Shown here in pieces: positions 180-15,271 of a DNA stretch of 24,447 bases; within the stretch, counting starts at the first letter, position 1, and every line of letters starts with the position of its first letter. Location: assembly GCA_012735335.1 (NCBI GenBank), contig JAAYHO010000293.1, forward strand, positions 1-24,447, read 5' to 3'. Source of the stretch: Gammaproteobacteria bacterium. GTDB taxonomy: Bacteria > Pseudomonadota > Gammaproteobacteria > Pseudomonadales > Pseudomonadaceae. The notes under the pieces are model-generated. The model ran no database searches, was not told the origin of the DNA, and saw only the letters and a list, made by a program, of their open reading frames with translations. The translations under genes and the position numbers were made by a program.

Positions 180-2030
180 TTACACTCGGCGCAGGATGAT
201 GCCTCTGTCACCTACCGCATAGACAGCACCGCTGCGGCTGGCGCAGACGGCGCGCAGGCCGAGGTCGGTGCCGCTGGTTTCCTGCTGCCACTGGCCGTTT
301 TTCAGACGCATGATGCGGCCGCGGGTGCCGACTGCCCAGGCCCGGTCCGGGCCGGTGCCGGAGATGCTCAGCAGGTCGTCGCGCAGGCGGGTGGGTTGCA
401 GTTGCCAGCGCTGGCCGTTGAAGTGGGCCAGGCTGCCGGACAGGCCCACCGCGTAGATGTCGTCCAGCTCCGGGCCCCAGATGCTGTAGAGGAAGTTCTC
501 GGTGCCGACGTTGAACTCCGCCCAGTCCCGGCCGTTGTAGCGCAGTACCAGACCGAAGTCACCGACCGCCAGCAGGCGGTCCTGGCCCCAGCCGTACAGA
601 CCATAGAGTGCCGACTGGGTACCGCTGGGCATGCGTTTCCAGCCCAGGCCGTCGTAGTGCAGGATCAGGCCTTCGTCACCCACCGCATAGAGGTCGTCCG
701 GGGCGCTGCCCCACAGGCCGAGGATGGTCAGGTCCAGGTGCAGGTCGTAGTGCAGTTGCCAGTCGCTGCCGTCATAGCGGTAGATGCGCCCGTGCTGACC
801 GGCGGCGAACAGGCCGTTGCCGGTATCCCACAGGCAGTGCACGTTGAGTTCGCTGGGGGCGGGCAGGGCGCGCCACTGGTCACCTTCCAGCACCAGTACG
901 GTACCGGCCTCGCCGCAGGCGTAGCAGGTGCCGTCGACACCTTCATGGATGCCCCACAGCTGGCGCTTGCCGGTACTGATCATGGGTTGCCAGCGGCTCT
1001 GCTCCCTGGCTGCGGCGGGGGCGGCCAGGGCGGCGGTGAAGTTGACTGCGGCGGTCATGATGCTGCCGAAGTCGCCCACCGCCAGCGCCTCACCGGTGGG
1101 CAGGGTGATGATATCCATCAGGTCATGGATGCTGTTGCTCTCCAGCCGGTTGAGCTGCAGGCCCTTGAGGTAGAACAGGTGGCCCTGGTCGCCGACCATC
1201 AGCACGCCGTCCTTGTAGGCCTTGAGTGAGCGCAGGCGCGGCATCGGGGTGTCGAAGGTCAGGGTCTGGAACTTGCCCTGACGGTAGCGCACCAGCTCGC
1301 CGCGAAAGCCACCGGGATCGACGAAGTAGCGCCCACCGGCCAGCAGCAGCTCGTCCTCGCCGGTCAGCAGCAGGGCCTGGAAGCCGGAGCCGAAGGGGCA
1401 GTCCAGCGCCAGCCAGCGGCCATCCACATCGCGCATCAGCACGGTGCCATCACCGCCGGCGGCGTAGACCCTGCCGTTGGCGGCGCAGGCCACTGCACGC
1501 AGGTTGGCCCGGGTCGGGGAGACTTCCTGATGCCAGTCACTGCCATCGAAGTGCAGGATGAGGCCGTCGTCACCCACCGCCCAGGCCTGGCCCTGTTCGT
1601 TGCCGTCGATGGCGAACAGCGGGGTGTTTTCCACGCAGGCGGCGAAGCGGCCATTGTCATCGACGATGGCGCCCCGGCGCTGCTGCCACTGGTCGCCGTC
1701 GAAATGCAGTACGGTGCCCATCCAGCCCACCGCGATCAGCTGGTCGGCGCGGTTGCCCCAGATGCCGTGCAGCGGCAGTTGAGTGGGTACGGACTGGCGT
1801 TGCCACTGGGGGCTGCTATCGTCGCTGGCACCGGTGTAGCGCAGCACCATGCCCTCGTCGCCGACCACGAACACTTCGCCGTCTCCGGCCCAGCCGGACC
1901 AGAGCACATCACCATCACCAGCCCCGACTTCGGGTACCCGACGCCAGGGCGCGCGCTGGGGTGCCTGGTCATCGCCACCGAGCAGTTGACGGAAAAACTG
2001 GCGGCGCTCGGCGTTGGGGGCCTGGGTCAT
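180..2030 (-). CDS. 14-repeat beta-propeller protein, last gene of the Ddh-like operon
   Basis: This 616-residue protein is built almost wholly of repeats of about 40 residues of the form L-x-x-[IL]-W ... YAVG-D-x-G-x-[IL]-L-H-[YF]-D-G ... W. I count 14 units (for example WAVGDDGLILHFDG and YAVGDEGLILHYDG), which would give two seven-bladed propellers. The repeat resembles BNR/YCF48-like propellers; I do not recognise a named family. The N-terminus has ERRQFFRQLLGG at residues 8-19, like a twin-arginine motif, but a charged stretch follows instead of a hydrophobic one, so export is unlikely and a cytoplasmic location is inferred. A GAGG ribosome site precedes the ATG by about 9 nt. It lies 36 nt after the Mrp-like gene, so co-transcription is likely. 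Possible roles are scaffold or assembly factor for the molybdoenzyme. Confidence 0.8.
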   Translation of the reverse strand: MTQAPNAERRQFFRQLLGGDDQAPQRAPWRRVPEVGAGDGDVLWSGWAGDGEVFVVGDEGMVLRYTGASDDSSPQWQRQSVPTQLPLHGIWGNRADQLIAVGWMGTVLHFDGDQWQQRRGAIVDDNGRFAACVENTPLFAIDGNEQGQAWAVGDDGLILHFDGSDWHQEVSPTRANLRAVACAANGRVYAAGGDGTVLMRDVDGRWLALDCPFGSGFQALLLTGEDELLLAGGRYFVDPGGFRGELVRYRQGKFQTLTFDTPMPRLRSLKAYKDGVLMVGDQGHLFYLKGLQLNRLESNSIHDLMDIITLPTGEALAVGDFGSIMTAAVNFTAALAAPAAAREQSRWQPMISTGKRQLWGIHEGVDGTCYACGEAGTVLVLEGDQWRALPAPSELNVHCLWDTGNGLFAAGQHGRIYRYDGSDWQLHYDLHLDLTILGLWGSAPDDLYAVGDEGLILHYDGLGWKRMPSGTQSALYGLYGWGQDRLLAVGDFGLVLRYNGRDWAEFNVGTENFLYSIWGPELDDIYAVGLSGSLAHFNGQRWQLQPTRLRDDLLSISGTGPDRAWAVGTRGRIMRLKNGQWQQETSGTDLGLRAVCASRSGAVYAVGDRGIILRRV

Positions 2031-2066
2031 GGTTTGAATCCTCGAAGATGAAAGTGTCGCTGGCGG

Positions 2067-3173
2067 TCAGTGCTGGTTGCCGCTGTCGTCGGGGCGGGCC
2101 TGACCGAGCAGGCTGCTCAGTTCGGCGCGCAGGGCATCACGTTGCTCGGCAGGTACAGCCGCCAGCGCGGCCTCGATATCCGCTGTGCCCTGTTGCCCCT
2201 GGTGCAGGCTCTGCAATGAATGGGCTGCGGCGGCGGCAAAGCTGTCCCGGGCCTGGTCGATGCAGGCCTGGACCGCTGGCATGAAGGCCCGCGCCTCGAT
2301 GCTGTCCGGCTCGGCCAGCACGATCGGCTGGCCACGGTCGGAGCCGCTGGCCAGTGCCGGTGACAGGGGGATCTGGGTCAGCGAGCTGACCCCGGCCTGG
2401 TCCAGTGCCTCGGCCAGATGGGCCCGGGGGAACAGGTGGAACTCACCACCGCAGTGCGGGCAGGTGACACCGGCCATGTTCTCCACCACACCGAGCAGCG
2501 GCATGCCGCGCTCCTGACAGAAACGGATGGCCTTGAGGCTGTCCATCAGCGCCACTTCCTGGGGCGTGGTGGCGAGCAGGGCGGCGACGTCGTGGCCTTC
2601 CAGCAGATCCGACAGGGTGATCAGCTCGTTGCCGGTGCCCGGCGGCATGTCGATCACCAGAAAATCCAGCGGGCCCCAGTCGAAGGAGCCGATCAGGTGG
2701 TGCATGAAGTCGTGCTTGTAGGCGTCGCGCCAGACGATCGGGGTGTCGTCGGTTTCCATCATGAAGGCCAGCGAGCCGACCCGGATCGGCTGCTGCAGCG
2801 CCGGATGGGTGAAGGCCAGGGTGCTGAGCCCCTGCTGGTTGATGCGTACCCGTTCGCCGACGAAGCCGAAGAAGCGGCTCTGGTTGGGGCCGTGGATGTC
2901 CGCATCGGCGACGCCGACCCGGTAGCCCCGGGCAGCCAGTCCGGCAGCCAGGTTGGCCGAGACGGTGCTTTTGCCGACCCCGCCCTTGTTGGCCATGACC
3001 ATGATGATCTGGCCGATCTGCTCCAGCCGGGATTCAAGCACGCGTTTCTCGTGGTGGCCCTTGTCCAGCCGACATTCCGGCTCCTGCGGGCAGAACTGGC
3101 AGGCGTGGCCGCGACCACAGTCCTCCGGCTTCAGCGCCAGCGGGTCGTGGGGGTGGAAATGGGAAACCGACAT
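2067..3173 (-). CDS. Mrp/Nbp35-type P-loop ATPase, probable Fe-S carrier
   Basis: This 368-residue protein is of the Mrp/ApbC/Nbp35 group of SIMIBI ATPases that carry and deliver iron-sulfur clusters. It has the deviant Walker A KGGVGKST (residues 63-70), a DADIHGPNQ switch (90-97), the IDMPPGTGNE switch II (174-183), and the CPHC pair (C238, C241) that binds the bridging cluster in Mrp dimers. Unusually, the N-terminus carries four cysteines (C19, C25, C28, C34). Their CX2CX5C end recalls the N-terminal 4Fe-4S motif of eukaryotic Nbp35, which bacterial Mrp normally lacks. The last 60 or so residues form an Ala/Gln-rich helical tail. An AGGAG site precedes the ATG. The gene starts 26 nt after the gamma subunit, suggesting service to that enzyme's Fe-S clusters. 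The family is clear; the client is inferred. Confidence 0.9.
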   Translation of the reverse strand: MSVSHFHPHDPLALKPEDCGRGHACQFCPQEPECRLDKGHHEKRVLESRLEQIGQIIMVMANKGGVGKSTVSANLAAGLAARGYRVGVADADIHGPNQSRFFGFVGERVRINQQGLSTLAFTHPALQQPIRVGSLAFMMETDDTPIVWRDAYKHDFMHHLIGSFDWGPLDFLVIDMPPGTGNELITLSDLLEGHDVAALLATTPQEVALMDSLKAIRFCQERGMPLLGVVENMAGVTCPHCGGEFHLFPRAHLAEALDQAGVSSLTQIPLSPALASGSDRGQPIVLAEPDSIEARAFMPAVQACIDQARDSFAAAAAHSLQSLHQGQQGTADIEAALAAVPAEQRDALRAELSSLLGQARPDDSGNQH

Positions 3174-3199
3174 GACTACTCCTGTTGGGCGGACGCGGG

Positions 3200-3988
3200 T
3201 CAGCCTTTATTGCCGTCGCTGGTATCGAGCATGATCCAGGTGTGGGTGATGCGCTTGTTGCCGTCGCGCTCATGGTCTTCACCCTGCCACACGGCAAAGG
3301 ATACCGGTACCGGGCCCTTGCTGAAATCGATCTCGTGCTTGTCGGCCGGGGCCAGCGGGCGGGACATGACTACCTGCCATTCGCTGTCCAGCTCGATCTG
3401 TTTGATCAGGTGCTTGCTGTCTCCGGAAACACTCTGCTCGGGCAGGCTGGTGGTACTGCCGAAGCCCCCGGCGGCGAGGTTCTGCACCGCATTGGTGTCG
3501 GCCCGCCAGTACCAGATGTTGACCGGCTTTTCCGGGCCGCTGCCCATCATGTAGGAGGTGTCCGCGCCATTCAGGGCGTACTGCACCGCCACACCATCGG
3601 GGAACTCATCCACACTGTTGTCAGTGTTGGCGCTGGGGTCCTTCCAGTACAGGCGTACATAGAAGCGCTCGCCGGTGCGGGCGACCTGGAAGTAGATGTG
3701 CTTGCTGCGCATGGCGCCATCGGCAAAGCGCAGGCTGACCGACTGGTGCACCGGCGGGGCCGGGTGCAGGTGGGTGCGGTAGACCGGCAGGCGCGACCAG
3801 ATCAGGTCGTCCGGGTCGTTCTGGTTGCGCAGGTAGATCTGCCCGGGGATGCGCTCGACCTTGATGGTGTCGCCGGGCTTGATCTCGGCCACGTTGGGGT
3901 TGGCCTCCTGGTGCTCGGCCAGCGCGACCGAGGCGCTGAAGGTCAGTGCCAGGGCCAGGGAGCTTCGCAGTATGGATTGCAGATTCAT
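3200..3988 (-). CDS. ddhC: Heme-b gamma subunit of a Ddh/Ebd-type molybdoenzyme
   Basis: This 262-residue precursor has a Sec signal peptide (hydrophobic LALALTFSAS, probable cleavage after VALA, residue 24). It matches the ethylbenzene-dehydrogenase-related family, which binds one heme b through Met and Lys in the periplasm and passes electrons between the Fe-S subunit and an external carrier. The likely ligand regions are M147/M148 just before PVNIWYWRAD and K245 in GNKRITHTW near the C-terminus, by analogy with EbdC. The ATG at 3988 is preceded by AAGGAG at good spacing and gives the signal peptide; the open frame extends 32 codons further without support. It follows the chaperone gene by 46 nt, giving the A-B-D-C order of ddh, ser and clr operons. 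Substrate-specific naming depends on the catalytic subunit. Confidence 0.85.
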   Translation of the reverse strand: MNLQSILRSSLALALTFSASVALAEHQEANPNVAEIKPGDTIKVERIPGQIYLRNQNDPDDLIWSRLPVYRTHLHPAPPVHQSVSLRFADGAMRSKHIYFQVARTGERFYVRLYWKDPSANTDNSVDEFPDGVAVQYALNGADTSYMMGSGPEKPVNIWYWRADTNAVQNLAAGGFGSTTSLPEQSVSGDSKHLIKQIELDSEWQVVMSRPLAPADKHEIDFSKGPVPVSFAVWQGEDHERDGNKRITHTWIMLDTSDGNKG

Positions 3989-4034
3989 GGTCAATCTCCT
4001 TGCAGGGGCAGCGCGCCCCGTTGGCGTCGGCCGG

Positions 4035-4772
4035 TCAGTCCCACAGCGGACGCGCATCGGCAGCGGAATCGGTGTTGGCAGCATTGGGCTGCGGGCAGGG
4101 GCCGACCTGGGCTTCCAGTTCGGCCTGCTGCTGCGCTACCCAGTCGGGCAGCACCTGGATCAGCTGGGCCAGGGTCTGGTTCAGACCCTGCTCCCGGGCC
4201 TTGCCGAAGCTCTCGCGGGTGGCGCACAGCAGCGGCTGCAGGTAGCGGGCGATGAAGTCCCGCTGGGCCCGTCTATAGGGACTGGGGTCGCGCTCGTTGA
4301 CCAGCGCCTCCTGCTCCAGATGACAGAGCAGGCTGCAGAACTCGAGCATGGCCACCAGATGGTCCGGTTCCTCGTTGTGGCCCTCGTCGCCCTGGGCGGC
4401 CTGCAGGCCGAAGTGGCGGTAGAAGGCCTGCACGTTGAGCAGGAAGCTGCCCGGGGTCAGGCCGCCGAGCAGATGCTCGTGGGCGCTGGCCAGCAGCGGC
4501 ACCCGCGGACGGCCCCGGCGGCCCTGCAGAAAGGTATCGGTATAACCGACCTGCAGGGCGACCAGATCCGGACTGGAGGGCAGCAGCGGCCAGCGCTCCC
4601 CCGTCAGGGTCTGCCAGGCGGGGGCCAGTGCGCTGTGCACCCGGCCTTCCTCCATGGCCTGCTGGGTTTCCTCCAGCGGGTAGCCGAACAGGGCGGCGGC
4701 CAGCCGGTAGACGGTCTCCCGCGCGGCCAGCCGATCGCTGTCGGCGGGCAGGGCGGCGGCGGTCTGGGTCAT
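4035..4772 (-). CDS. ddhD: NarJ/TorD-like chaperone for the molybdoenzyme
   Basis: This 245-residue, largely helical cytoplasmic protein has no signal peptide or cysteine cluster. It resembles the TorD/DmsD/NarJ family of redox-enzyme maturation proteins, which bind the Tat leader and apo-form of the catalytic subunit until Moco is inserted. Visible family-like stretches are the early YRLAAALFGYPLEE and the PDHLVAMLEFCSLLCHLEQEAL helix around the middle. I chose the ATG at 4772 because a GGGAGAG site lies just upstream. A TTG at 4790 in the same frame would overlap the stop of the B-subunit gene and is less likely. Its position between subunits B and C is the diagnostic D position in ddhABDC, serABDC and clrABDC operons. 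The protein is absent from the mature enzyme in those systems. Confidence 0.85.
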   Translation of the reverse strand: MTQTAAALPADSDRLAARETVYRLAAALFGYPLEETQQAMEEGRVHSALAPAWQTLTGERWPLLPSSPDLVALQVGYTDTFLQGRRGRPRVPLLASAHEHLLGGLTPGSFLLNVQAFYRHFGLQAAQGDEGHNEEPDHLVAMLEFCSLLCHLEQEALVNERDPSPYRRAQRDFIARYLQPLLCATRESFGKAREQGLNQTLAQLIQVLPDWVAQQQAELEAQVGPCPQPNAANTDSAADARPLWD

Positions 4773-4786
4773 GACATCTCTCCCGC

Positions 4787-5767
4787 TCAACTGAGCTTGA
4801 ACATCTCGGCGTGCTTGAAGCCGATCAGGGTGTCCATCAGCTCGCTGTCCCGGCCTTCGGCCTTGGCCTGACGCTCCCGGGCCAGGGTGGCCAGAGCCTC
4901 ACCGGTGGTCGGGCCGAACAGGCTTTCCAGGTATTCCAGCGGAATGCGTTGCTCGCCGGTGTCGCGGCCCTCGGAGTCGTATTTCGACGGCGAGGTCGGC
5001 GGCACGTAGAACACGTTGGGCTGGGTGCCCCATTCGGCGTGCAGTGGCAGCGCTACCTTGTACTTCTCCACCAGCAGGTGGATGGGACCTTCCTCATCGT
5101 CGCGGTAGCCGATCCAGCGGATGCGGCCGACGCACTGCTGGGCGCAGGCGGTGGGCAGGCCCTTCTCGATGCGCGGGTAGCAGAAGATGCACTTCTCCGA
5201 CTTGGAGATCTCCTCGTTGAAGTAGACCTTCTTGTACGGGCAGGCGTTGACGCAGTAACGGTAGCCCCGGCAGCGCTCCTGGTCGACCAGTACGATGCCG
5301 TCCTCCTGGCGCTTGTAGATGGCGTTGCGCGAGCAGGCCGCCAGACAGGCCGGGTTGGCGCAGTGGTTGCACAGCCGTGGCAGGTAGAAGTAGTAACTGT
5401 TGGGATACTGGCCCTCACCCTCGTCCTCATCCCAGTTGGGACCCCAGGTGGGTTTGACGTGGGGCCGCAGCCAGGGGTCGGTGCCGGTCATCAGGGCTTC
5501 CTGGTAGTTGTACTCCCAGGGAATGCCGTAGTCGTCCTGACTGGGCTGGCGGCCCAGGCGCAGGGCGCCGTCGGCATCGAAGCCACCGCCCATCTGTTCG
5601 TATTCACGGGGATAACCGACACCGGGCTGGCTCTCCACGTTGTTCCAGTACATGAATTCCCGGCCGTTGCGGTTGGTCCACATCAGCTTGCAGGCGGTGG
5701 AGCAGGTGTGGCAGCCGATGCACTTGTTCAGGTCCAGCACCATGCTCAGTTGGCGTTTGACAGCCAT
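4787..5767 (-). CDS. ddhB: Four-cluster Fe-S beta subunit of a Ddh-type molybdoenzyme
   Basis: This 326-residue ferredoxin-like subunit resembles NarH, DdhB and EbdB. Sixteen ligand positions form four groups: C16/C19/C22/C26; C133/C136/C141/C145; C166/Y169/C172/C176; C193/C196/C208/C212. In the third group the second cysteine is replaced by tyrosine (CRGYRYC). The corresponding tryptophan in NarH goes with a 3Fe-4S cluster, so three 4Fe-4S and one 3Fe-4S are expected. There is no signal peptide; it would be exported through Tat bound to the catalytic subunit. The ATG at 5767 has AGGAGA upstream and lies 12 nt after the stop of the catalytic gene. The subunit carries electrons between the Mo site and the heme-b subunit. 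Confidence 0.92.
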   Translation of the reverse strand: MAVKRQLSMVLDLNKCIGCHTCSTACKLMWTNRNGREFMYWNNVESQPGVGYPREYEQMGGGFDADGALRLGRQPSQDDYGIPWEYNYQEALMTGTDPWLRPHVKPTWGPNWDEDEGEGQYPNSYYFYLPRLCNHCANPACLAACSRNAIYKRQEDGIVLVDQERCRGYRYCVNACPYKKVYFNEEISKSEKCIFCYPRIEKGLPTACAQQCVGRIRWIGYRDDEEGPIHLLVEKYKVALPLHAEWGTQPNVFYVPPTSPSKYDSEGRDTGEQRIPLEYLESLFGPTTGEALATLARERQAKAEGRDSELMDTLIGFKHAEMFKLS

Positions 5768-5779
5768 GGCAATCTCCTC

Positions 5780-8551
5780 TTAAACCGTCCGCGGATCGGC
5801 AATGTCTTCGGGCTTGGCCAGCTCGATATCGAAGCTCGATTCGTGCAACAGCTGGTTGGCGTTCCACATGGCGTACTTGTAGGTCAAATGGCCCCAGCCC
5901 CCGACCAGTTCCAGCGGTTGCAGGAAGGTGGCCATGGCATTGTTCATCGGCTTGCGGTGGATGTACTGGTGCGGCTCCCAGCCGTGTTCCATCATGATTG
6001 AGTGCTTGGGAATGCTCGGATAGAACTTGGCCTGGGCGAAGAAGTCACCGGTTGAGTTGTACAGGCGGACGGTATCGCCGTCCTTGATGCCGCGCTCGGC
6101 GGCCAGCTCGGGGTTGATATAGATGTTCGGCTCACCGCGCTGCAGGCGCAGCATGTACTTGTTGCTGCGCCAGTTGGAGTGGATGCCCCAGCGGGTGTGC
6201 GGCGAGTAGAAGTGCAGCGGGTATTTCGACGCTTCCGGGCCACCGTACAGGCGGGCGGTGGGCACCGTGGACTTGAGCTTCATGAACCGTGGGTGGTCGA
6301 CGTAGAAGGTCACCCGCCCGGTCAGGGTGTCATAGGGCTTCTTGTCGGCGGTCTGGGCGACGAAGGGGTTGTAGGGTTCGTCCTTGAGCAGCGGCTGGTT
6401 GCCACCGGCATGCTCGTTCATGACGATGAAGCCGCGCTCGCCTGCCTCTTCCAGCGACACGCCACCGAATTCCGGTGAATTCTCGACGATATAGCGGGCC
6501 ACATCCATTTCGGTGGCGAGTTCACCGTTGCGGGTGAAATCGTCGTGAATGGTATGCAGGTCCCGGGTCACGTCGCCGTCCTGAATCGGACCGATGCCCC
6601 GGGCAATGGCGCGCTCCTGAATCTTTTTGGTCAGCAGCACCAGGATATCCCAGTCCGGCTTGCACTCCCCGACCGGCTCGACCGAGCGGGTGAACACGTT
6701 GCAGAAGCGGTGATAGCCCTGGGTGCGCAGGTCCCATGCCTCATAGTGGCTGGCGGCGGGCAGCACGTAGTCGGCCCATTCGGCGGTGGAGTCCATGCGC
6801 ACGTTGATGCAGGCAAACAGCTCGCTGGCCTGGCGCAGGTGCTCCTCGCGGTACTTGTCGGCAAACTTGTTGCGGCGGAAGGTGTTATCAGCGATCGAGA
6901 TCATGCCCTTGATTTCGCCGTAATAGGGCATCCAGCCCTCGTCCAGCGACTCCTGGATCATCTCTTCCATCTCGTCCAGATCGAAGCCCACACGCTTTTT
7001 CAGCTTGGCATTATCGAAGTGCTTGCGCGCCCCTTCCATCATGCCACCACGCAGGAACTCGCCCAGACCGCCCGGCTCGTAGCGCGCGGACTTCTTGCCC
7101 TCGAAGGTGGCCACCTCGGTCCACAGCGGATGATTCCAGGCTACCCAGGAGGTATCCAGACCGCCGGTGCGGCCGCCATGGCCGGTCAGTGCCAGCGCCA
7201 GTGCATAGCTCCAGCAGGTGTACAGGCAGTTGGAATAGCTGGAGGTGATATAGCCGAGCATGACGATGGCTTTTTTCGCCTTGGCCATGTGCCGGGCTTC
7301 CTGACGCACCACATCCGGGTGGATATTGGTGGTCTTGAAGGTGTTCTCGGGCTTGAACCTGGCGGCCTCGAGCTTGACCTGCTCGAACACCGTGGTGACC
7401 TTGATACCGTCAACGGTGAACTGGCCTTCCAGCGCCGGATCGACACCGTCGAGCCTGATGGTCTTCTCCTCGCTGCCCATGGAGCCCTTGGCCTTGACCG
7501 CCTGCTGGCTGTTCAGGTCCCAGTGGTAGAACACCTCGTCGCTGCCGCCTTCGACCAGATCGGACTCGCGCAGCAGCTTCTTGTTGTCCACTCGCACCAG
7601 CATCGGCAGGTCGGTCTGTTCCTTCATGAAGTCCGGCTGATAGAGCTTTTCCTCAAGAATGACGTTGACCAGCGACATGGCGAAGAAGGGGTCGGTGCCT
7701 TGGTTGATCGGCATCCACAGGTCGGTGTGGATGGCGCTGGGGTTGTAGTCCGGCGAGGTGCTGGTGATCCGTGCGCCGTTGTACTTGGCTTCCCAGATGT
7801 AGTGCGCGTCGGGAATCCGCGTGGCGTTGGGGTTGATCATGCCGAGCAGGATGTAGTCGGCGTCGAACCAGCCATCCGAGGTAAAGCTTTCCAGCGGCGT
7901 ACCATAGGCCAGATGGGCACCGGTGAGCAGGTCGCCGACCACGGTGAAGCCGTCCAGCTGGATACCGCCGACCAGCGAGGCAAAACGCTGACCGCCGGAC
8001 TGGCGGACCATGGTCTGGTTGCCTGAGCCCTGGTGGGTCTTGAGCTTGCCGGGGCCGTATTTCTCGAAGATATCAATCACCTTGTCGGCGATTTCTTCGG
8101 TGGCCTGATCCCAGGAAATACGCTGCCACTTGCCCTCGCCGCGCTCACCGGCGCGCTTGAGCGGGTAACGTAGGCGGTCGGCTTCGTACATGGCAGTGGA
8201 GTGGATGGCGCCCTTCTGGCAACCACGGGGGTTGGCATCCGGGACGTTGGGGTTGACCTGGGGATACTTGGCGATCTGCTCCTCGCGGATGACGATGCCG
8301 TCCTTGACATAGACGTTCCAGGCGCAGTTACCCATGCAGTTGATGCAGTGGGCGGCATGGCCGACGCTGTCCCAGGTCCATTCGTTGCGGTACAGGTCTT
8401 CCCAGCTGCGATAGGGATACTCGCTGGCCAGGGTGTCGCCGACCGGCTCCAGCCGGTTGAGCGACCAGACCTTGCCACTGACCATGGCCCCGGCACTGGT
8501 GGCCCCCAGGCCTTTCAGGAAGTCACGCCGCTTGAGCTTCCACATACCCAT
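5780..8551 (-). CDS. ddhA: Mo-bisMGD catalytic subunit, type II DMSO reductase family, DMS dehydrogenase-like
   Basis: This 923-residue precursor starts at the ATG at 8551, which has GAGGAGA upstream and places a Tat leader at the N-terminus (KRRDFLKG, residues 7-14, then a short hydrophobic run). The FS0 cluster motif is H68, C72, C76 and C111 (in HCINCMGNCAW and NPRGCQKG), with His as first ligand as in type II enzymes. D207 in VVGDLLTG aligns with the aspartate Mo ligand of NarG/EbdA. From memory, HCINCMGNCAW, GDLxTGAHLAYG and SPHTRWGIHSNWRSNK match dimethylsulfide dehydrogenase DdhA of Rhodovulum, whereas ClrA/SerA have HSNGCVAGCAW. DdhA oxidises DMS to DMSO in the periplasm and reduces cytochrome c. 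Family assignment is very secure; the DMS substrate is inference. A chlorate, selenate or hydrocarbon substrate remains possible. Confidence 0.9.
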   Translation of the reverse strand: MGMWKLKRRDFLKGLGATSAGAMVSGKVWSLNRLEPVGDTLASEYPYRSWEDLYRNEWTWDSVGHAAHCINCMGNCAWNVYVKDGIVIREEQIAKYPQVNPNVPDANPRGCQKGAIHSTAMYEADRLRYPLKRAGERGEGKWQRISWDQATEEIADKVIDIFEKYGPGKLKTHQGSGNQTMVRQSGGQRFASLVGGIQLDGFTVVGDLLTGAHLAYGTPLESFTSDGWFDADYILLGMINPNATRIPDAHYIWEAKYNGARITSTSPDYNPSAIHTDLWMPINQGTDPFFAMSLVNVILEEKLYQPDFMKEQTDLPMLVRVDNKKLLRESDLVEGGSDEVFYHWDLNSQQAVKAKGSMGSEEKTIRLDGVDPALEGQFTVDGIKVTTVFEQVKLEAARFKPENTFKTTNIHPDVVRQEARHMAKAKKAIVMLGYITSSYSNCLYTCWSYALALALTGHGGRTGGLDTSWVAWNHPLWTEVATFEGKKSARYEPGGLGEFLRGGMMEGARKHFDNAKLKKRVGFDLDEMEEMIQESLDEGWMPYYGEIKGMISIADNTFRRNKFADKYREEHLRQASELFACINVRMDSTAEWADYVLPAASHYEAWDLRTQGYHRFCNVFTRSVEPVGECKPDWDILVLLTKKIQERAIARGIGPIQDGDVTRDLHTIHDDFTRNGELATEMDVARYIVENSPEFGGVSLEEAGERGFIVMNEHAGGNQPLLKDEPYNPFVAQTADKKPYDTLTGRVTFYVDHPRFMKLKSTVPTARLYGGPEASKYPLHFYSPHTRWGIHSNWRSNKYMLRLQRGEPNIYINPELAAERGIKDGDTVRLYNSTGDFFAQAKFYPSIPKHSIMMEHGWEPHQYIHRKPMNNAMATFLQPLELVGGWGHLTYKYAMWNANQLLHESSFDIELAKPEDIADPRTV

Positions 8552-8672
8552 AATTATCTCCTCACCACAGGTTCCGCCAACTGTTGCCGCTGACTGGAAC
8601 CGTTCTGTATTCATCGGGCCTGACGTCAATGCTGCCGGTCCTCACGGGGACCGGGCTGGCGCTGCGCTTATG

Positions 8673-8701
8673 ACTATAGCCAGTACCTCAGCAGATGTCT
8701 G
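8673..8701 (-). promoter_or_regulatory. Possible sigma-70 promoter in front of the catalytic subunit gene
   Basis: On the minus strand, CAGACA (8701-8696) is followed after 17 nt by TATAGT (8678-8673), four and five matches to the -35 and -10 consensus. Transcription from here would give a leader of roughly 115 nt before the ATG at 8551. No Fnr box is visible in this 202-nt gap. It may be a secondary promoter separate from the one upstream of the cytochrome gene. This is a pattern match only. Confidence 0.3.
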
Positions 8702-8721
8702 AACAGGTGCTCTTGATGTTG

Positions 8722-8748
8722 CCGGGCGGCTGATCCGCAACCGCCGGG
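8722..8748 (-). repeat. Intercistronic hairpin between the cytochrome c and catalytic subunit genes
   Basis: CCGGGCGG and CCGCCGGG flank an 11-nt loop. They can form a stem of five G-C pairs, one mismatch and two more pairs, starting about 6 nt after the cytochrome stop codon. No T-run follows on the minus strand, so it does not look like a Rho-independent terminator. It could mark an mRNA processing or stability point that separates expression of the cytochrome from the enzyme. Confidence 0.4.
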
Positions 8749-8753
8749 GGATG

Positions 8754-9077
8754 TCATTGCTGGCTGTAATAGGCAGCAATATCAGCGATATCCTGATCGC
8801 TGAGGTTGAGGGTCTGCGGGGTCATGACCATGGACATGCCGCCGCCGCGCAGACCTTCGCGGTAGGATTTGAGGGAGGTTTCCAGATAGCTGGCGGACTG
8901 GCCGGCCAGATTGGGGTAGATATCGGCGGTGGCCTTGCCATCGAGGCCGTGGCAGGCGACGCAGACGGTAATCTTCTGGGCGCCTGCTTCGGGATCACCG
9001 GCGGCGCTGGCCAGCCCGGAGTACATCATGCTGCCCAGCAACAGCGTTGCCGAGGCTTTCATCAGCTTGCTCCACAT
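8754..9077 (-). CDS. Small periplasmic cytochrome c, single heme
   Basis: This 107-residue precursor has a Sec signal peptide (cleavage likely near GLASA, residue 25) and one heme-attachment motif CVACH (C39, C42, H43). The sixth ligand is probably one of the methionines in MSMVMTP (M81, M83 or M85). The sequence resembles class I c5/c553/c4-half cytochromes (PNLAGQSASYLETSLKSYREG). The start at 9077 is preceded by GAGGAAG at good spacing; an in-frame ATG at 9104 has no such support and would spoil the signal peptide. It is the first gene downstream of the Fnr/Anr box and lies 202 nt upstream of the catalytic subunit gene. It is a plausible electron partner of the Ddh-like enzyme, since DMS dehydrogenase donates to a periplasmic cytochrome c. 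The pairing is inferred from position. Confidence 0.9.
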   Translation of the reverse strand: MWSKLMKASATLLLGSMMYSGLASAAGDPEAGAQKITVCVACHGLDGKATADIYPNLAGQSASYLETSLKSYREGLRGGGMSMVMTPQTLNLSDQDIADIAAYYSQQ

Positions 9078-9251: not shown

Positions 9252-10472
9252 TTACAGCAGAGCGCTGTAGGGAATGTAGCCCAGTATGTCGCCGGGCTGC
9301 ACGCTGTGCTGTGCCGGAATCACCACCAGACCGTCCGCCCAGCTGCAGTTGGCCAGCATGGCGGAACTCTGCTGTGGGTGCAGCTGGACCTGCAGTCTGC
9401 CCTGTTCGATCTCCAACCGGGCCTGCAGATACTGGGTGCGCAGTCTGGGCTTGCTGCGGCTGAAGCTGGCCTGTACCCGCAGCAGCTGCGGCGTAGTAAC
9501 GGTCTGGCCCTGGGCGGCGAGCAATGCCGGGCGGGCAATGATCAGCGCGGTGACCAGACTGGCCGCCGGGTTGCCGGGCAGACCGATCCAGGGCGTGCTG
9601 CCGATACTGCCGAAGGCCAGCGGCTTGCCCGGCTGAATGGCGACCCGCCACAGGTTCAGCTGGCCCAGTTGCTGTACGGCGGTTTTCAGGTGATCCGCCT
9701 CGCCGACCGAGACGCCGCCGCTGCTGATCAGCAGATCCTGCTCCTGGCTGGCGCGGTCGAACAGTTGCAGGGTGTCGTCCAGGTTGTCGCGCAGATGCGG
9801 GTACTGGGTCACGCTAAAGCCCCAGCCCTGCAGCAGGCTGGCCAGCAGGTAGCGGTTGGTATCGTAGATCTGGCTGCCCTGCAGTTCGCTGCCGGGAGCG
9901 CAGAGCTCGTTGCCGCTGCTGATGATGCCGATGCGCAGTGGCCGACAGACCGGTACCCGGGCAAAGCCCTGACTGGCCAGCAGACCGATTTCCTGTGCCC
10001 GCAGGCGGGTGCCGCTGGCCAGCAGCAGAGCGCCGCTGCGGGTTTCCTCGCCCTGACGGCGGATATTCTGCCCGGCCTCGACCTGGCCGAATTCCACTGC
10101 GTCAGCCTGGCGCAGGCAATTCTCCTGGGGTACCACGGTATCGGCCCCGGTAGGCACCGGGGCACCGGTGAAGATCTGCAGGCAATGGCCCGGCGGCAGC
10201 GTCTGCAGGGTATCCCCTGCCGCCTGGCAACCGGCCAGCGGCAGGCGACTGGTTCGGGCCAGGTCGGCACTGTTCAGGGCGTAGCCGTCCATCGCGCTGT
10301 TGTCCCAGCGGGGCACGTCGAGCCGGGCGTGCAGGTCCTCGGCAAGCACCAGCCCGCTGGCCTCGGTGAGCGCCACGCTGTGGGACTCGACCGGGCGCTG
10401 CAGCAGCTCGGTCAGCGCGGCGATGGCCTGCTCGATGCTGTTGAGGCCGGGCTGTTCACATACCGAACTCAT
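9252..10472 (-). CDS. moeA: Molybdopterin molybdotransferase MoeA, first copy
   Basis: This 406-residue protein inserts molybdate into adenylated molybdopterin. Family motifs present are DNSAMDGYA (57-65), FTGAPVPTGAD (101-111), the SGGVSVGEAD loop and the C-terminal GLPGNPAAS. The motif usually read as STGDEL is SSGNEL here (N188), replacing an aspartate that is conserved in the family. The start at 10472 overlaps the moaE stop as ATGA and has AAGGAG 5 nt upstream, so translation is probably coupled; an in-frame ATG at 10496 lies within moaE. A second MoeA gene is at 14072-15271. The Asn substitution may mark divergence in activity or substrate, perhaps Mo insertion for one class of enzyme. 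Family call is firm. Confidence 0.93.
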   Translation of the reverse strand: MSSVCEQPGLNSIEQAIAALTELLQRPVESHSVALTEASGLVLAEDLHARLDVPRWDNSAMDGYALNSADLARTSRLPLAGCQAAGDTLQTLPPGHCLQIFTGAPVPTGADTVVPQENCLRQADAVEFGQVEAGQNIRRQGEETRSGALLLASGTRLRAQEIGLLASQGFARVPVCRPLRIGIISSGNELCAPGSELQGSQIYDTNRYLLASLLQGWGFSVTQYPHLRDNLDDTLQLFDRASQEQDLLISSGGVSVGEADHLKTAVQQLGQLNLWRVAIQPGKPLAFGSIGSTPWIGLPGNPAASLVTALIIARPALLAAQGQTVTTPQLLRVQASFSRSKPRLRTQYLQARLEIEQGRLQVQLHPQQSSAMLANCSWADGLVVIPAQHSVQPGDILGYIPYSALL

Positions 10473-10939
10473 GGGCGCTCCTTGTCGGTGTTCCAACGCT
10501 CAGCGGCCTGCTGATCGCTGCTGCGGCCATCCACCCAGTAGCTGCCGGTGGCGGTGAATTCCTTCTTCCAGAAGGGCGCACGGGTCTTCAGGTAGTCCAT
10601 GATGAACTCGCAGGCAGCGAAGGCGTCACCACGGTGGGCGCTGGCGGTGCCGACAAACACGATCGGCTCGCTCGGGGTCAGCTGGCCGACCCGGTGCAGT
10701 ATGTGTACTGCCTGCAGCGGCCAGCGCTGGCAGGCCTGCTCGGCAATCGCCCGCAGGGACTTCTCGGTCATGCCGGGGAAGTGTTCGAGAAACAGCCCCT
10801 GCACCTGCTGATCCTGGTTGAAGTCACGCATGTAGCCGGTAAAGCAGACCGTTGCGCCAATCGCCGGGTTGGCACCATGCACCCCGTGCAGCAGTGCGCC
10901 GGGATCGAACAGCTGTTCCTGTACCTGAACCTGAATCAC
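10469..10939 (-). CDS. moaE: Molybdopterin synthase large subunit MoaE
   Basis: This 156-residue cytoplasmic protein is the catalytic subunit of molybdopterin synthase. With thiocarboxylated MoaD it converts cyclic pyranopterin monophosphate into molybdopterin. The family pattern is clear: GATVCFTGYMRD near residue 28, LEHFPGM, the HRVG and ASAHRGDAF segments (H102, R103) and the lysine region around K118 and FWKKE (K125), positions equivalent to catalytic lysines in E. coli MoaE. Length agrees with the family. It begins 2 nt after moaD and its stop overlaps the start of moeA, as expected in a tightly coupled Moco operon. Confidence 0.95.
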   Translation of the reverse strand: MIQVQVQEQLFDPGALLHGVHGANPAIGATVCFTGYMRDFNQDQQVQGLFLEHFPGMTEKSLRAIAEQACQRWPLQAVHILHRVGQLTPSEPIVFVGTASAHRGDAFAACEFIMDYLKTRAPFWKKEFTATGSYWVDGRSSDQQAAERWNTDKERP

Positions 10940-10941
10940 CC

Positions 10942-11190
10942 TCAGCCTCCTGTTACCAGTGGGAAGAACACCACCTCATCGCCGGACTGCACCGGGCTGT
11001 CCAGGCTGCACATTTCCTCGTTCAGCGCACACATCAGGGTGCTGTCCTCCAGCACTGTCCAGGCTTCGCCGCGCTGGGTCAGGTGGGTGCGGATATCGCC
11101 CACGGTCTGCCAGCCATCCTGCCAGGGCAGTTGCAGCCGGTCGGTCTGCAGCTCTTCCTTGTAACGGGCAAAAAACAATACGGTGATCAT
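10942..11190 (-). CDS. moaD: Molybdopterin synthase sulfur carrier MoaD
   Basis: This 82-residue ubiquitin-like protein ends in the required Gly-Gly (VTGG). The terminal glycine is normally adenylated by MoeB and converted to a thiocarboxylate that supplies the dithiolene sulfurs of molybdopterin. [14 protein letters not shown] at the N-terminus and [13 protein letters not shown] at the C-terminus are characteristic. Its ATG overlaps the moaC stop as ATGA, and moaE follows after 2 nt. No moeB is present in the window, so the activating enzyme must be encoded elsewhere. Confidence 0.95.
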
Positions 11191-11675
11191 GATTGCTCCT
11201 GTGCGTCTGCGTTACGCAGGTAATGGCCGGATTTGCCGCCGAGCTTTTCCAGCAGGTGGACCTGCTGGATCTGCATGTCCTTGTCCACCGCCTTGCACAT
11301 GTCGTACAGGGTCAGGGCGGCGACCGAGGCGGCGGTCAGCGCCTCCATTTCCACGCCGGTCTGACCGGCCAGCTTGCAGGTGGCGGTGATGCGCACATGC
11401 TCCGGCGGCAGGGCTTCGAGCTGCACCTTGATGCTGGTCAGCAGCAGCGGGTGGCACAGTGGAATCAGCTCATGGGTACGTTTGGCGGCCTGAATGCCGG
11501 CTATGCGGGCCACGGCGAAGACATCGCCCTTGGGGTGACCACCGTCCTGAATCATGCTCAGGGTCTCGGCGCGCATCTGTACCAGCGCCTGGGCGCTGGC
11601 CTGACGTTCGGTGACCGCCTTGGCGGTCACATCGACCATATTGGCGCGGCCCTGATTATCCAGATGGGTAAGCAT
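11187..11675 (-). CDS. moaC: Cyclic pyranopterin monophosphate synthase MoaC
   Basis: This 162-residue protein completes the first step of Moco synthesis by converting the MoaA product 3',8-cyclo-GTP into cyclic pyranopterin monophosphate. Clear motifs are the N-terminal [41 protein letters not shown] and the active-site MCKAVDK near residue 130. The true start is the ATG at 11675 with TAGGAG upstream. The open frame continues 102 codons further, but that part lies antisense-free inside mobA and has no ribosome site. It starts 8 nt after mobA and overlaps moaD by 4 nt. Confidence 0.95.
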
Positions 11676-11683
11676 GAAGGCTC

Positions 11684-12277
11684 CTATGATGAGGGCTGGG
11701 TCAGCATCGCCAGCTCGTTGAAGTTGCTCAGCCGCCGGTCGTCGGCCGGGCATTCCAGTGCCAGCGGCTGATGCTCCAGCAGGGCCCGCTGCGGACTGCG
11801 TTGTCCGGCCTGCCATTGTGCCTGCAGGGCGGGCAGCAGGGTGGTCGGGATCAGGCTGAACAGCGGTTCCCAGTAACCGTCCCGGCGCAGCATCACCGGT
11901 CGGGCACCGGCCTGCCCATGCAGCTGCTGCAGCAGCTCGCGGTCCACCAGTGGCGCATCGCAGGGCAGTACCAGCAGCCAAGGATGCCGGGCCACCCTGA
12001 GCGCTTCAATGATCCCGATCAAGGGGCCGGGAAAATCCGCCACCGGGTCGCTGATCAACTGGTCAGCCAGCGCTGCGTAGCGTGCTTGATTGCGATTGCA
12101 GGAGATGATCAGGTCATCCGTCAGGGGGCGTACCACGGCATGCACATGTTCGATCAGCGCCCGCCCCTGCCAGTTGACCCAACCCTTGTCCCGGCCGCCC
12201 ATGCGCTGCCCGCGACCACCGGCCAGCAGCAGGATACTGCAGTCTGCCAGGGGGGAGGGATGGGGTATGCCGGACAT
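11684..12277 (-). CDS. mobA: Molybdenum cofactor guanylyltransferase MobA
   Basis: This 197-residue nucleotidyltransferase attaches GMP from GTP to Mo-molybdopterin, giving the bis-MGD form used by DMSO-reductase-family enzymes. The signature [15 protein letters not shown] (residues 18-32, with K31) and the LPCDAPL metal-binding segment (D107) are present. Length is near the E. coli protein. It is the first gene of the leftward Moco operon; moaC follows after 8 nt. The ribosome site before the ATG at 12277 is weak, and a 14-nt perfect palindrome lies about 27 nt upstream. Both large enzymes in the window need bis-MGD, which agrees with its presence here. Confidence 0.93.
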
Positions 12278-12303
12278 GTGGTGCAGCCTGTTTCAAGAGT
12301 GAT

Positions 12304-12317
12304 CCCGCTACAGCGGG
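12304..12317. repeat. Short perfect palindrome in front of mobA
   Basis: CCCGCT-AC-AGCGGG can form a five-pair G-C stem with a TACA loop. It sits about 27 nt upstream of the mobA start, in the 181-nt divergent gap between mobA and moaA. It may be an operator or a leader hairpin. I saw no Fnr box or convincing -35/-10 pair in this gap, although TACAAT (minus strand, near 12415-12425) is a possible -10. Confidence 0.3.
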
Positions 12318-12458
12318 CAGAGTGCAGGACAGAGCAGGTAGTGTGTCATAAACGGATGTGTTTGCAATCCGGAGCAGGATGTCACAGCCGAGTCTGACTC
12401 AGAACGGTGGCAAATATTGTACACTGCGGCCACAACTGCTTTCGGGAGTCAGAGAAGT

Positions 12459-13451
12459 ATGGCCTCCACCTGGGTCGATGGCTTTGGCCGCCAGATAGAC
12501 TACGTGCGGATATCGGTCACCGATCGCTGTGACTTTCGCTGTATCTACTGCATGGCCGAAGACATGACCTTTCTGCCGCGCCAGCAGGTGCTGACGCTGG
12601 AAGAAATCTACCGCAGCGCCCAGCTGTTCGTTGCCAATGGGGTGCGCAAGATCCGTCTGACCGGTGGCGAGCCGCTGGTACGCAAGGGCATCGTCGAACT
12701 GTGCGCGCAGATCAGCACGCTGCCCGGACTGGATGAGCTGGTGATGACCACCAACGGCTCGCAACTGACCCGCCATGCCCGGGGGCTGGCCGAGGCCGGG
12801 GTCCGGCGGCTGAACATCAGTCTGGACACCCTGGACGCCGAACGCTTCCGCGCCATGACTCGGGTCGGTGATCTGCAGCAGGTGCTGGCGGGGATAGACG
12901 CGGCGCAGCAGGCGGGTTTTGCCTCGGTGAAGATCAACAGCGTGATCATCCGCGGGCGCAATGATGACGAGATCCAGCGGCTGACCGAGTTTGCCATCCA
13001 GCGCGGGCTGGACATCACCTTTATCGAAGAGATGCCGCTGGGCCATGTGGGGCGCAGCCGTGAGCAGGCACTGTTTCGCAGTGATCAGATCCAGAGTCTG
13101 CTGGAGCAGCGCTACCGGCTGGCCCCCAGTGTCGAAACCACCGGCGGGCCGGCGCGCTATGTGCGGCTGGAAGAGCACCCGCAGACCCGCGTCGGCTTCA
13201 TCTCCCCGCACAGCAACAACTTCTGCAGCAGCTGCAACCGGGTACGCCTGACCTCGGAAGGGCGGCTGCTGCTGTGCCTGGGCAACGAGCACGACCTGGA
13301 TATGCGCGCCCTGCTGCGCCGTCATCCGCTGGATGATCAGCCGCTGATCGATGCGGTACGCAATGCCCTGCAGTACAAGCCCGAACGCCACGAGTTCAGT
13401 GCCGATGGCGAGGTGCAGATCCTGCGCTTCATGAATGCCAGTGGAGGCTAG
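12459..13451 (+). CDS. moaA: GTP 3',8-cyclase MoaA (radical SAM)
   Basis: This 330-residue enzyme cyclises GTP to 3',8-cyclo-GTP as the first Moco step. The N-terminal radical-SAM cluster is C24-X3-C28-X2-C31 ([15 protein letters not shown]). The C-terminal cluster is C256, C259 and C273 ([19 protein letters not shown]). The TGGEPL SAM-binding motif is present and the protein ends in Gly-Gly, as active MoaA proteins do. I chose the ATG at 12459 with AGAGAAG upstream; the frame extends 14 codons further without a ribosome site. It is divergent from mobA, so the shared 181-nt gap probably holds both promoters. Confidence 0.95.
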
Positions 13452-13475
13452 CAGCGCCCCCTGTTTTTTGTCGGA

Positions 13476-13491
13476 GCGGCGCCCCCGCCGC
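13476..13491. repeat. REP-like palindrome between moaA and moaB
   Basis: GCGGCG-CCCC-CGCCGC is a perfect hairpin, embedded in GTCGGAGCGGCG ... CGCCGCGAATCCC. The flanks GGAGCGG and CCGCGAAT resemble the repetitive extragenic palindromes common in Pseudomonas genomes. It lies in the 82-nt gap after the moaA stop and may stabilise or process the mRNA. A run of six T lies before it, not after, so it is not a rightward terminator. Confidence 0.5.
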
Positions 13492-13533
13492 GAATCCCGG
13501 CAGCCGATTTTCTTTTACCGAAGAGGAACACCC

Positions 13534-14070
13534 ATGAGTCACGCCAGCAAGGAATTCATCCCGCTGAATGTAGCGGTACTGACCATCAGCGACACCCGCA
13601 CCCTGGAGACCGATACCTCCGGTCAGTATCTGGTGGATCAGTTACAAAAAGACGGCCACCGGGTGGCCGAGCGGGTCATCCTCAAGGACAACCTGTACCA
13701 GATCCGCGCCCAGGTAGCCCAGTGGATCGCCAGTGACGATATCCAGGTGGTGCTGACCACCGGTGGCACCGGTTTTACCGACCGCGACAGCACCCCGGAT
13801 GCGGTGGCCTGCCTGCTGGACCGGCGCATCGAGGGTTTCGGCGAGCTGTTCCGGCAGATCTCGTATGAGGAAATCGGCAGCTCCACCATCCAGTCCCGGG
13901 CACTGGCCGGTCTGGCCAATCGCACCCTGGTGTGCTGCGTACCCGGCTCCACCGGCGCCTGCCGCACCGCCTGGGAAGGACTGATCCAGAAGCAGCTGGA
14001 TGCCCGTCACGGCCCCTGCAACATGGTGCCGCACATCACCCGCACCGCCGCCTGCGACAGCCGGGGTTGA
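13534..14070 (+). CDS. moaB: Molybdopterin adenylyltransferase-family protein MoaB
   Basis: This 178-residue protein is of the MoaB/MogA fold that binds molybdopterin. In Pseudomonas-like bacteria MoaB probably adenylates molybdopterin before MoeA inserts molybdate. Family motifs are LTISDTRT near the start, the VLTTGGTGFTDRDSTPDA substrate loop, and FGELFRQISYEEIGSS. The ATG at 13534 has AAGAGGAA upstream. The open frame upstream of it runs into the end of moaA and the REP-like element and is unlikely to be coding. The second moeA starts 1 nt after the stop, so the pair acts in consecutive steps. No mogA is seen in the window. Confidence 0.93.
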   Translation: MSHASKEFIPLNVAVLTISDTRTLETDTSGQYLVDQLQKDGHRVAERVILKDNLYQIRAQVAQWIASDDIQVVLTTGGTGFTDRDSTPDAVACLLDRRIEGFGELFRQISYEEIGSSTIQSRALAGLANRTLVCCVPGSTGACRTAWEGLIQKQLDARHGPCNMVPHITRTAACDSRG

Positions 14071-14071
14071 T

Positions 14072-15271
14072 ATGGCGCTGATGCCCCTTGATCAGGCCCT
14101 GCAGCGATTGCTGCAGCAGGCCGACCAGCTTGGCCCGACGCCGGTCGAGACGTTGGCCGCCGAGGCCGCACTGGGACGTATTCTGGCCAGTCCACTGATC
14201 GCCGAGCAGACTCTGCCGCCCTGGCCCAACAGCGCCATGGACGGCTATGCGGTGCGCAGCGCCGAGGTGGTGCCGGGCCAGCCGTTGCCGGTCAGCCAGA
14301 AGGTGTTTGCCGGACAGATGCCAGCGGCGTTGCAGCCGGGCAGCTGTGCGCGGATCTTCACCGGAGCACCGCTGCCCGAGGGTGCCGATGCGGTGGAAAT
14401 GCAGGAAAACGTGCAGCTGGATGCCGAGGGGCGGGTGCTGTTTGCTCAGGCAATACCCGCCGGGCGCTTCGTGCGTCCGGCAGGGGAGGAGGCTCAGCCC
14501 GGGCAGCTCAAGCTGGAGGCCGGGGTGCGGTTGGGGCCGGTGGAGCTGGCCCAGGCCGCATCACTGGGTGTTACCCAGTTGCAGGTGCACCGCCCGCTGC
14601 GGGTGGCGGTGCTGTCCACCGGCGATGAGCTGGTCGAGCCGGGTCAGCCCCTGCAACCGGGGCAGATCTACAACAGCAATCGCGCACTGATGATCCACTG
14701 GCTGCGGCGCATGGGTTGCGAGGTGCTGGACGCAGGCTGCCTGCCGGATGATCCGCAGCAGATCCGCCAGCAGCTGGCGGCACTGGAGGATATCGACCTG
14801 CTGCTCAGCTCCGGCGGGGTTTCCGTGGGTGAAGCGGACTACCTGGGGCAGCTGCTGCGCGAGGAGGGCGAGGTCAACTTCTGGCGCCTGGCACTCAAAC
14901 CGGGCAAGCCGATGACCTTCGGCCGTTACCGGGGCATGTCCTTCATCGGTCTGCCGGGCAACCCGGTGTCGACCCTGGTGACCATGACAATCCTGGCGCG
15001 GCCGTGGATCCTGCGGCGCATGGGCATGCGCGACGTGGCGCCGCTGTGTTTTCCGGTACCGGTGGACTTTGCCATCAGCCAGGCCGGCAGCCGTCGGGAG
15101 TTTCTGCGGGTGGGCTGGCGCCATGGCCGGGCGCAGCTGTACGACAACCAGTGCTCGGGCATTCTCAGCAGCGCGGCCTGGGCCGATGGTCTGCTGGAGT
15201 TGCCGGAGGGCAGCACCTGTCAGCCGGGGGATCTGCTGAACTTCTATCCCTTCTCCGAATTGCTGGCTTGA
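14072..15271 (+). CDS. moeA: Molybdopterin molybdotransferase MoeA, second copy
   Basis: This 399-residue paralogue of the 9252-10472 gene has the canonical STGDEL motif, FTGAPLPEGAD, SGGVSVGEAD and GLPGNPVST. It differs from the usual DNSAMDGYA by a proline in place of the first aspartate (WPNSAMDGYA, P52). The start at 14072 follows the moaB stop after one base. The upstream frame lies within moaB and is rejected. The pair moaB-moeA suggests that this is the general housekeeping copy, while the copy with GNEL may be specialised; that is inference. It catalyses the same step, molybdate insertion into adenylated molybdopterin. Confidence 0.93.
   Translation: MALMPLDQALQRLLQQADQLGPTPVETLAAEAALGRILASPLIAEQTLPPWPNSAMDGYAVRSAEVVPGQPLPVSQKVFAGQMPAALQPGSCARIFTGAPLPEGADAVEMQENVQLDAEGRVLFAQAIPAGRFVRPAGEEAQPGQLKLEAGVRLGPVELAQAASLGVTQLQVHRPLRVAVLSTGDELVEPGQPLQPGQIYNSNRALMIHWLRRMGCEVLDAGCLPDDPQQIRQQLAALEDIDLLLSSGGVSVGEADYLGQLLREEGEVNFWRLALKPGKPMTFGRYRGMSFIGLPGNPVSTLVTMTILARPWILRRMGMRDVAPLCFPVPVDFAISQAGSRREFLRVGWRHGRAQLYDNQCSGILSSAAWADGLLELPEGSTCQPGDLLNFYPFSELLA

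Follow-up and report, generated by a model that had tools for sequence, protein, structure and literature searches.

The window analysed here is a DNA stretch of 24,447 nt (contig JAAYHO010000293.1 of assembly GCA_012735335.1) from a Gammaproteobacteria bacterium of the family Pseudomonadaceae. Between positions 180 and 9077 it contains seven open frames on the minus strand, encoding a cytochrome c, subunits A, B, D and C of a molybdoenzyme, an ATPase of Mrp/Nbp35 type and a protein with two beta-propellers. The operon limits given in the initial annotation are correct. Individual features are listed in Table 1.

Table 1. Features of the molybdoenzyme operon (positions in the window; Tat, twin-arginine translocation; Mo-bis-MGD, molybdenum bis(molybdopterin guanine dinucleotide))
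Feature	Position	Strand	Basis
Anr/FNR-type box TTGATCTGGATCAA	9228..9241	-	Exact palindrome ~150 bp ahead of cytochrome gene
Small c-type cytochrome, leader-like start	8754..9077	-	Pfam Cytochrom_C, 48.7 bits
A, predicted catalytic Mo-bis-MGD subunit; Tat leader, FS0, Mo-Asp 208, loop LDGFTVVGD; start codon ATG 8551	5780..8551	-	NCBIfam TIGR03479, 1225 bits (cut-off 985); trees; motif alignment
B, predicted four-cluster Fe-S subunit	4787..5767	-	NCBIfam TIGR03478, 566 bits (cut-off 481)
D, TorD-like putative assembly chaperone; start TTG 4790 or ATG 4772	4035..4790	-	Pfam Nitrate_red_del
C, predicted heme b subunit, leader-like start	3200..3988	-	NCBIfam TIGR03477, 183 bits (cut-off 170), scored on longer frame 3200-4084
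Mrp/Nbp35-like P-loop ATPase	2067..3173	-	Pfam ParA/NUBPL, 242 bits
Tandem beta-propeller protein	180..2030	-	AlphaFold2 model, Foldseek, two weak Pfam propeller models

Subunits A, B and C pass the cut-offs of their NCBIfam models. D remains slightly under that of TIGR03482 (136 bits, cut-off 152) and passes Pfam Nitrate_red_del. A fails the ethylbenzene dehydrogenase model NF042978 (440 bits, cut-off 2000), and its match to the Pfam TAT-signal model lies just beneath the curated cut-off. Cofactor ligands are in place. In A, iron-sulfur cluster FS0 has the motif H-x3-C-x3-C...C, that is, one histidine and three cysteines, and the molybdenum aspartate is D208 in 924-residue numbering. In B, fifteen ligand cysteines are conserved and the sixteenth position is taken by Tyr169. 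C matches EbdC and NxrC in PDB; its conserved Met148 and Lys245 align with a methionine and Lys201 of EbdC, whose heme is bound by one Met and one Lys, the aligned Met being the presumed ligand. Such a pair would fit a high-potential heme of the dimethyl sulfide (DMS) dehydrogenase type, for which +324 mV is reported (PMC8840923). The type II periplasmic molybdoenzyme recognized in the initial annotation thus holds, and the genes are predicted to encode a soluble periplasmic ABC trimer belonging to the DdhA clade.

To this clade A was assigned by identity and by phylogeny. It is 68% identical to Rhodovulum sulfidophilum DdhA and 45% to Ideonella ClrA. In a tree of 66 rows, whose outgroup does not lie on one side of a single branch, A shares a clade of 50 rows with R. 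sulfidophilum DdhA (Shimodaira-Hasegawa-like approximate likelihood ratio test 98); a separate clade unites Ideonella ClrA with its relative from Sedimenticola. A careful tree of 37 rows, 29 of the 66 having been dropped beforehand, displays the same split from four ClrA-type rows with support 100/100; rooting within the clade by the ClrA outgroup and some inner branches are unsettled in it. As anticipated in the initial annotation, A is therefore not a member of the Ideonella-type ClrA/selenate reductase clade, in which SerA was represented by Sedimenticola selenatireducens and not by Thauera SerA. Full-length A occurs in 2 of 16 genomes of the genus Rhodovulum. The genome whose A equals the R. 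sulfidophilum protein (G415) has a single type II A above the NCBIfam cut-off, and so this protein is DdhA by exclusion.

Distribution of the operon was examined in 58 loci, detected by a non-exhaustive search of a single genome for each species with six short peptide patterns. The loci span Halomonas, Marinobacter, Pseudomonas-like bacteria, Oceanimonas, the Roseobacter group and other Proteobacteria. Gene order was counted in loci where A is nearly complete and is followed by 6.5 kb or more of sequence; Stutzerimonas chloritidismutans AW-1, with its operon split over contigs, is outside this count. The order A-B-D-C-Mrp-propeller is strictly kept in 46 of 49 testable loci, and in 48 if two tandem duplicates (L010 and L042, where the better B match lies in the second copy and the first copy is complete) are included; the third strict miss, L046, is distant (49%). 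Since the order is kept across bacterial classes, it is no chance arrangement. The same six genes are found in R. sulfidophilum (L105) and Rhodovulum imhoffii (L053), and full-length propeller genes were present in all five ddh genomes checked. The Mrp-like and propeller genes had been regarded as unusual additions; they are standard parts of ddh operons, and the possibility that they are peculiar to this genome is ruled out by the 48 loci, R. sulfidophilum included.

Some loci have features of their own. The two tandem duplications are found on Oceanisphaera-like contigs (~10.0-22.5 kb) as head-to-tail operon copies, both with the GFTV loop described below; the second copy comprises A, B and the beginning of D within the sequence examined. 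A plasmid of the haloarchaeon Haloferax larsenii (L060:13398-14678) carries a type II operon with an Mrp-type ATPase (FeS_assembly_P domain, DUF2249) and also a cytochrome b/Rieske pair. In one Halomonas, the vicinity of the ddh operon includes a gene for ribonucleotide reductase that contains intein-splicing and LAGLIDADG domains (L024:5221-7611).

The loci fall into two branches, one from alphaproteobacteria (alpha) and one from gamma- and betaproteobacteria (gamma/beta), and these differ in the loop ahead of the molybdenum aspartate. All 15 alpha loci have IFTD, whereas GFTV is found in 36 and GFTT in two of the 38 gamma/beta loci. The window A has GFTV and not the DdhA-type IFTD. Among 133 clade members (relatives to ~64% identity, some proteins twice, L046, L059, L060 and proteins of up to 880 residues being set aside), LDIFTDVGD occurs 70 times and LDGFTVVGD 51 times, the remainder being variants.

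The branches also differ upstream of A, where box and cytochrome counts grouped loci by loop, which equals grouping by organism. The Anr/FNR-type box of the window is an exact palindrome, with one match in the window against 0.01 expected. In 24 of 38 gamma/beta loci the 800 bp ahead of A contain the pattern TTGAY-N4-RTCAA, which none of the 15 alpha loci has there; background rate outside these stretches predicts ~0.3 of 38, related loci not being independent. Comparison of operon contents among nearest relatives, suggested in the initial annotation, gave a cytochrome gene within 2 kb upstream of A, in either orientation, for 20 of the 38 gamma/beta loci and for none of the 15 alpha loci. Conversely, a divergent hybrid histidine kinase and/or response regulator accompanies all 14 alpha loci that were clustered and none of the 36 gamma/beta ones. 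This tally finds relatives of those two genes alone; the clustering left out 7 of the 58 loci as partial or distant and was made without L032, L015 and the window. Because of box, cytochrome and regulatory wiring together with the changed loop, the gamma/beta branch is regarded as a distinct ortholog group. The substrate of this group should not be carried over from R. sulfidophilum without an assay.

DdhA of R. sulfidophilum is credited with oxidising DMS (PMC10100899). In agreement with this, DMS degradation is reported for Labrenzia, Oceanicola and Stappia isolates whose alpha-type DdhA shares 76% identity with the R. sulfidophilum protein (PMC6524544). As the set of operon genes stays the same and the loop has kept its hydrophobic character, the same reaction is the most economical one for the gamma/beta branch. 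We infer the substrate, the direction of electron flow and the roles of the Mrp-like and propeller proteins as follows. The enzyme may well, with evenly balanced confidence, be an Anr-controlled periplasmic dehydrogenase that oxidises DMS or a similar small neutral thioether and feeds cytochrome c. The molybdenum site would convert the thioether to its sulfoxide, and electrons would leave molybdenum via FS0, FS1-FS4, heme b and cytochrome c and reach acceptors of high potential, perhaps nitrous oxide and other denitrification reductases. The adjacent cytochrome is likely to be the electron partner of the enzyme, a partner of its own in this genome, and D, Mrp-like ATPase and propeller would be its own assembly factors. 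Judging from the box, Anr/FNR probably activates transcription at low oxygen. The reverse type of reaction, reduction of dimethyl sulfoxide with cytochrome c, was ruled out on redox potentials (general knowledge).

The branch-wide shift of the loop from IFTD to GFTV or GFTT might instead reflect another neutral substrate. A glycine at position -6 relative to the aspartate would open the pocket for a larger thioether, a hydrocarbon or an alcohol, and the enzyme would act as dehydrogenase or hydroxylase, perhaps coupled to denitrification. Exchange of upstream regulators and addition of the cytochrome agree with such a change, as does the hydroxylation of a hydrocarbon by the structural relative EbdA. 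We consider this reading unlikely, though worth keeping in view: operon composition is the same in both branches, and none of ten recurrent or AW-1 flank proteins scanned in Pfam indicates a substrate, those from flank clustering of gamma genomes being local neighbours (e.g. YidC, MnmE, an ABC transporter).

Another case to be weighed is that of AW-1, which respires chlorate (PMC6299022). Its sole complete type II A is 82% identical to the window A and belongs to the same gamma/beta branch. AW-1 B is 88% identical to the window B, and an overlapping contig carries the genes for D, C, Mrp and propeller. Two operon copies were considered and rejected, as the contig ends overlap by 1638 bases at 99.9% and the genome yielded just a single complete type II A. 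The A gene lies ~2.3 kb from a chlorite dismutase gene (product 64% identical to that of Ideonella) with a transposase in between, and the locus most likely encodes the chlorate reductase of AW-1. With AW-1 inside the DdhA clade, clade membership is therefore no proof of DMS oxidation. The catalytic-subunit tree proposed as a check in the initial annotation thus gives a divided answer: A does group with R. sulfidophilum DdhA, but the gamma/beta branch itself holds A of a chlorate respirer. DdhA-likeness of the AW-1 reductase may be already known in the literature; ClrA groups ClrA1-3 are named in the available part of PMC9751292, which does not list their members.

The AW-1 sequence departs from its relatives in the loop, among other sites. 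HVAA replaces GFTV, and two near twins have HITA, making up three of the 133 sequences, the window not among them; one near twin (L017) keeps Thr204. The AW-1 changes bring in a histidine. Compared with the other 130 sequences, AW-1 is altered at 2 of 365 positions conserved to at least 97%, namely the loop residues F203 and T204. With the threshold at 95%, it is altered at 2 of 417 sites, once more within the loop; with 90%, at 8 of 493, of which two are loop positions; and with 100%, at 0 of 241. When the reference is the set of 38 gamma/beta loci, selected by organism, AW-1 has changes at 7 of the 478 invariant sites; three of these are residues 202-204. None of the 38 loci, each compared with the others, departs inside residues 200-208. 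Chlorate function thus appears to accompany a rewritten loop, as an association only. No Anr box was seen upstream of AW-1 A and no NosZ was found in its genome.

Could the whole branch then consist of oxyanion reductases for chlorate, bromate, selenate or similar, fed by the cytochrome and with the AW-1 enzyme as their best-known member? Besides AW-1, whose only complete type II A adjoins chlorite dismutase, the upstream box speaks for it, Anr/FNR control being typical of anaerobic reductases, and so does a loop without aspartate at -3, as in the reductases compared. Precisely this loop is, however, rewritten at residues 202-204 in AW-1, whereas the window keeps the usual one. Chlorite dismutase was detected in just 2 of 20 ddh-bearing genomes searched and beside the operon solely in AW-1, Ideonella control apart; the draft genome of the window (92.5% complete) gave no match. 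An oxyanion reductase is accordingly rated as improbable here. A chlorite dismutase family gene also occurs in Tropicimonas isoalkanivorans (G609:C20:120216-120743, genome of L036), outside the ddh locus stretch; its A loop is IFTD.

Several observations weigh against DMS oxidation, still the preferred reading. The enzyme of AW-1, a close branch member, is judged a reductase from its gene neighbourhood. Relative to DdhA, the window loop is changed at -6 (I to G) and at -3 (D to V), and aspartate at -3 is present in EbdA and DdhA, not in NarG, PcrA, Ideonella ClrA or AW-1. Upstream wiring is wholly unlike that of the alpha branch, and our literature search met with no gamma/beta member that had been assayed on DMS. 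The link to denitrification is of limited help. Of 16 gamma/beta genomes with ddh that were examined, 14 encode NosZ, and the window's own genome is one of these 14 (G464 and G600, with identical NosZ places, were counted once); of the alpha ddh genomes, just 2 of 5 do. Within Halomonas it is found in 8 of 9 ddh genomes versus 51 of 81 (p 0.16), and within the window's genus in 3 of 3 versus 8 of 20 same-genus genomes without ddh among the matches listed (p 0.09). The genus-stratified p is 0.047 with relatedness ignored, and the link is weak inside genera. Denitrification was therefore rejected as decisive evidence. We tentatively suggest, with somewhat less than even confidence, that the gamma/beta branch is functionally distinct from plain DMS dehydrogenases, an Anr-controlled and possibly denitrification-linked oxidoreductase with a molybdenum loop of its own, which would have served as a scaffold for the AW-1 chlorate reductase by rewriting of residues 202-205 next to the molybdenum and pairing with chlorite dismutase.

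Further, the two genes downstream of C were analysed. Like Mrp/NBP35 carriers (ApbC, Nbp35, MrpORP), the Mrp-like protein has a P-loop and a CPxC motif. In addition, it has an N-terminal C-x5-C-x2-C-x5-C, presumably resembling the eukaryotic Nbp35 motif, and by this it differs from three ApbC-type paralogues read, all of other genomes and all without it. Across 56 operon copies, each motif residue is kept in 95% or more. ATPases of this kind are Fe-S cluster carriers, one of which is proposed to act for the complex encoded alongside (PMC6345978). Because the complex requires five Fe-S clusters, the Mrp-like ATPase may plausibly be a dedicated Fe-S loader.

The AlphaFold2 model of the propeller protein (predicted local distance difference test 89.6, predicted template modelling score 0.55) is a tandem beta-propeller, for which Foldseek retrieved generic tandem propellers only. 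Arg9 and Arg10 are invariant in 28 sequences and lie within a short, poorly modelled N-terminal helix. The lack of a hydrophobic stretch after this Arg-Arg start suggests a cytoplasmic role, and the protein may be an assembly factor acting ahead of Tat export. The start resembles a cut-down Tat motif; NapF has a similar one. In 398 evenly drawn Pseudomonadota genomes, 24 match the propeller at E <=0.001, full length only in the window's own genome, and the best match in the 397 others reaches 60.4 bits.

The remaining part of the window encodes MoeA (twice), MoaE, MoaD, MoaC, MoaA, MoaB, FdhD, formate dehydrogenase, ModA and ModB families, the last two labels being assigned to a Pfam solute-binding protein and permease. 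The transporter is probably for molybdate. The two MoeA-type genes and those of MoaA, MoaB, MoaC, MoaD and MoaE types lie next to the operon (9252-15271), and many have relatives in locus L001. Because of these MoeA, Moa, FdhD, formate dehydrogenase and Mod-type neighbours, the operon is described as embedded in a predicted molybdenum gene island. Four open reading frames of the window have no Pfam match, and an Rfam search of it gave no lead.

R. sulfidophilum DdhABDC is among the closest known systems. Gene order is the same, followed by Mrp and propeller, and besides A, identities are 77% for B, 47% for C, 43% for D, 60% for Mrp and 46% for propeller; R. sulfidophilum has the IFTD loop and a divergent hybrid histidine kinase upstream, the window GFTV, Anr box and cytochrome. 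The AW-1 operon differs from the window by adjacent chlorite dismutase and transposase and by its HVAA loop. Ideonella dechloratans ClrABDC shares the A-B-D-C order and has a cytochrome c gene nearby, but no Mrp or propeller match was found in the stretch read and its A falls in the separate clade. EbdABC and PcrA have the type II fold and cofactor ligands in common with the window enzyme and are otherwise distant. Our literature search did not encounter the extra-gene and loop observations, no search being aimed at the loop itself.

The system is thus of a known kind and the operon itself ordinary; it belongs to a poorly studied branch, in which the branch-specific loop, the regulation and the AW-1 comparison are worth following. 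The comparison with AW-1 is a small test of chlorate respiration arising from another molybdoenzyme, and the Mrp-like and propeller genes are putative assembly genes that heterologous expression of Ddh may need. In metagenomes, ddhA is counted as a marker of DMS loss (PMC6524544, PMC9327192). If the gamma/beta branch, with Halomonas, Marinobacter, Pseudomonas relatives and others, acts otherwise, such counts would be inflated; if it does oxidise DMS, loss of this compound would be tied to low-oxygen bacteria.

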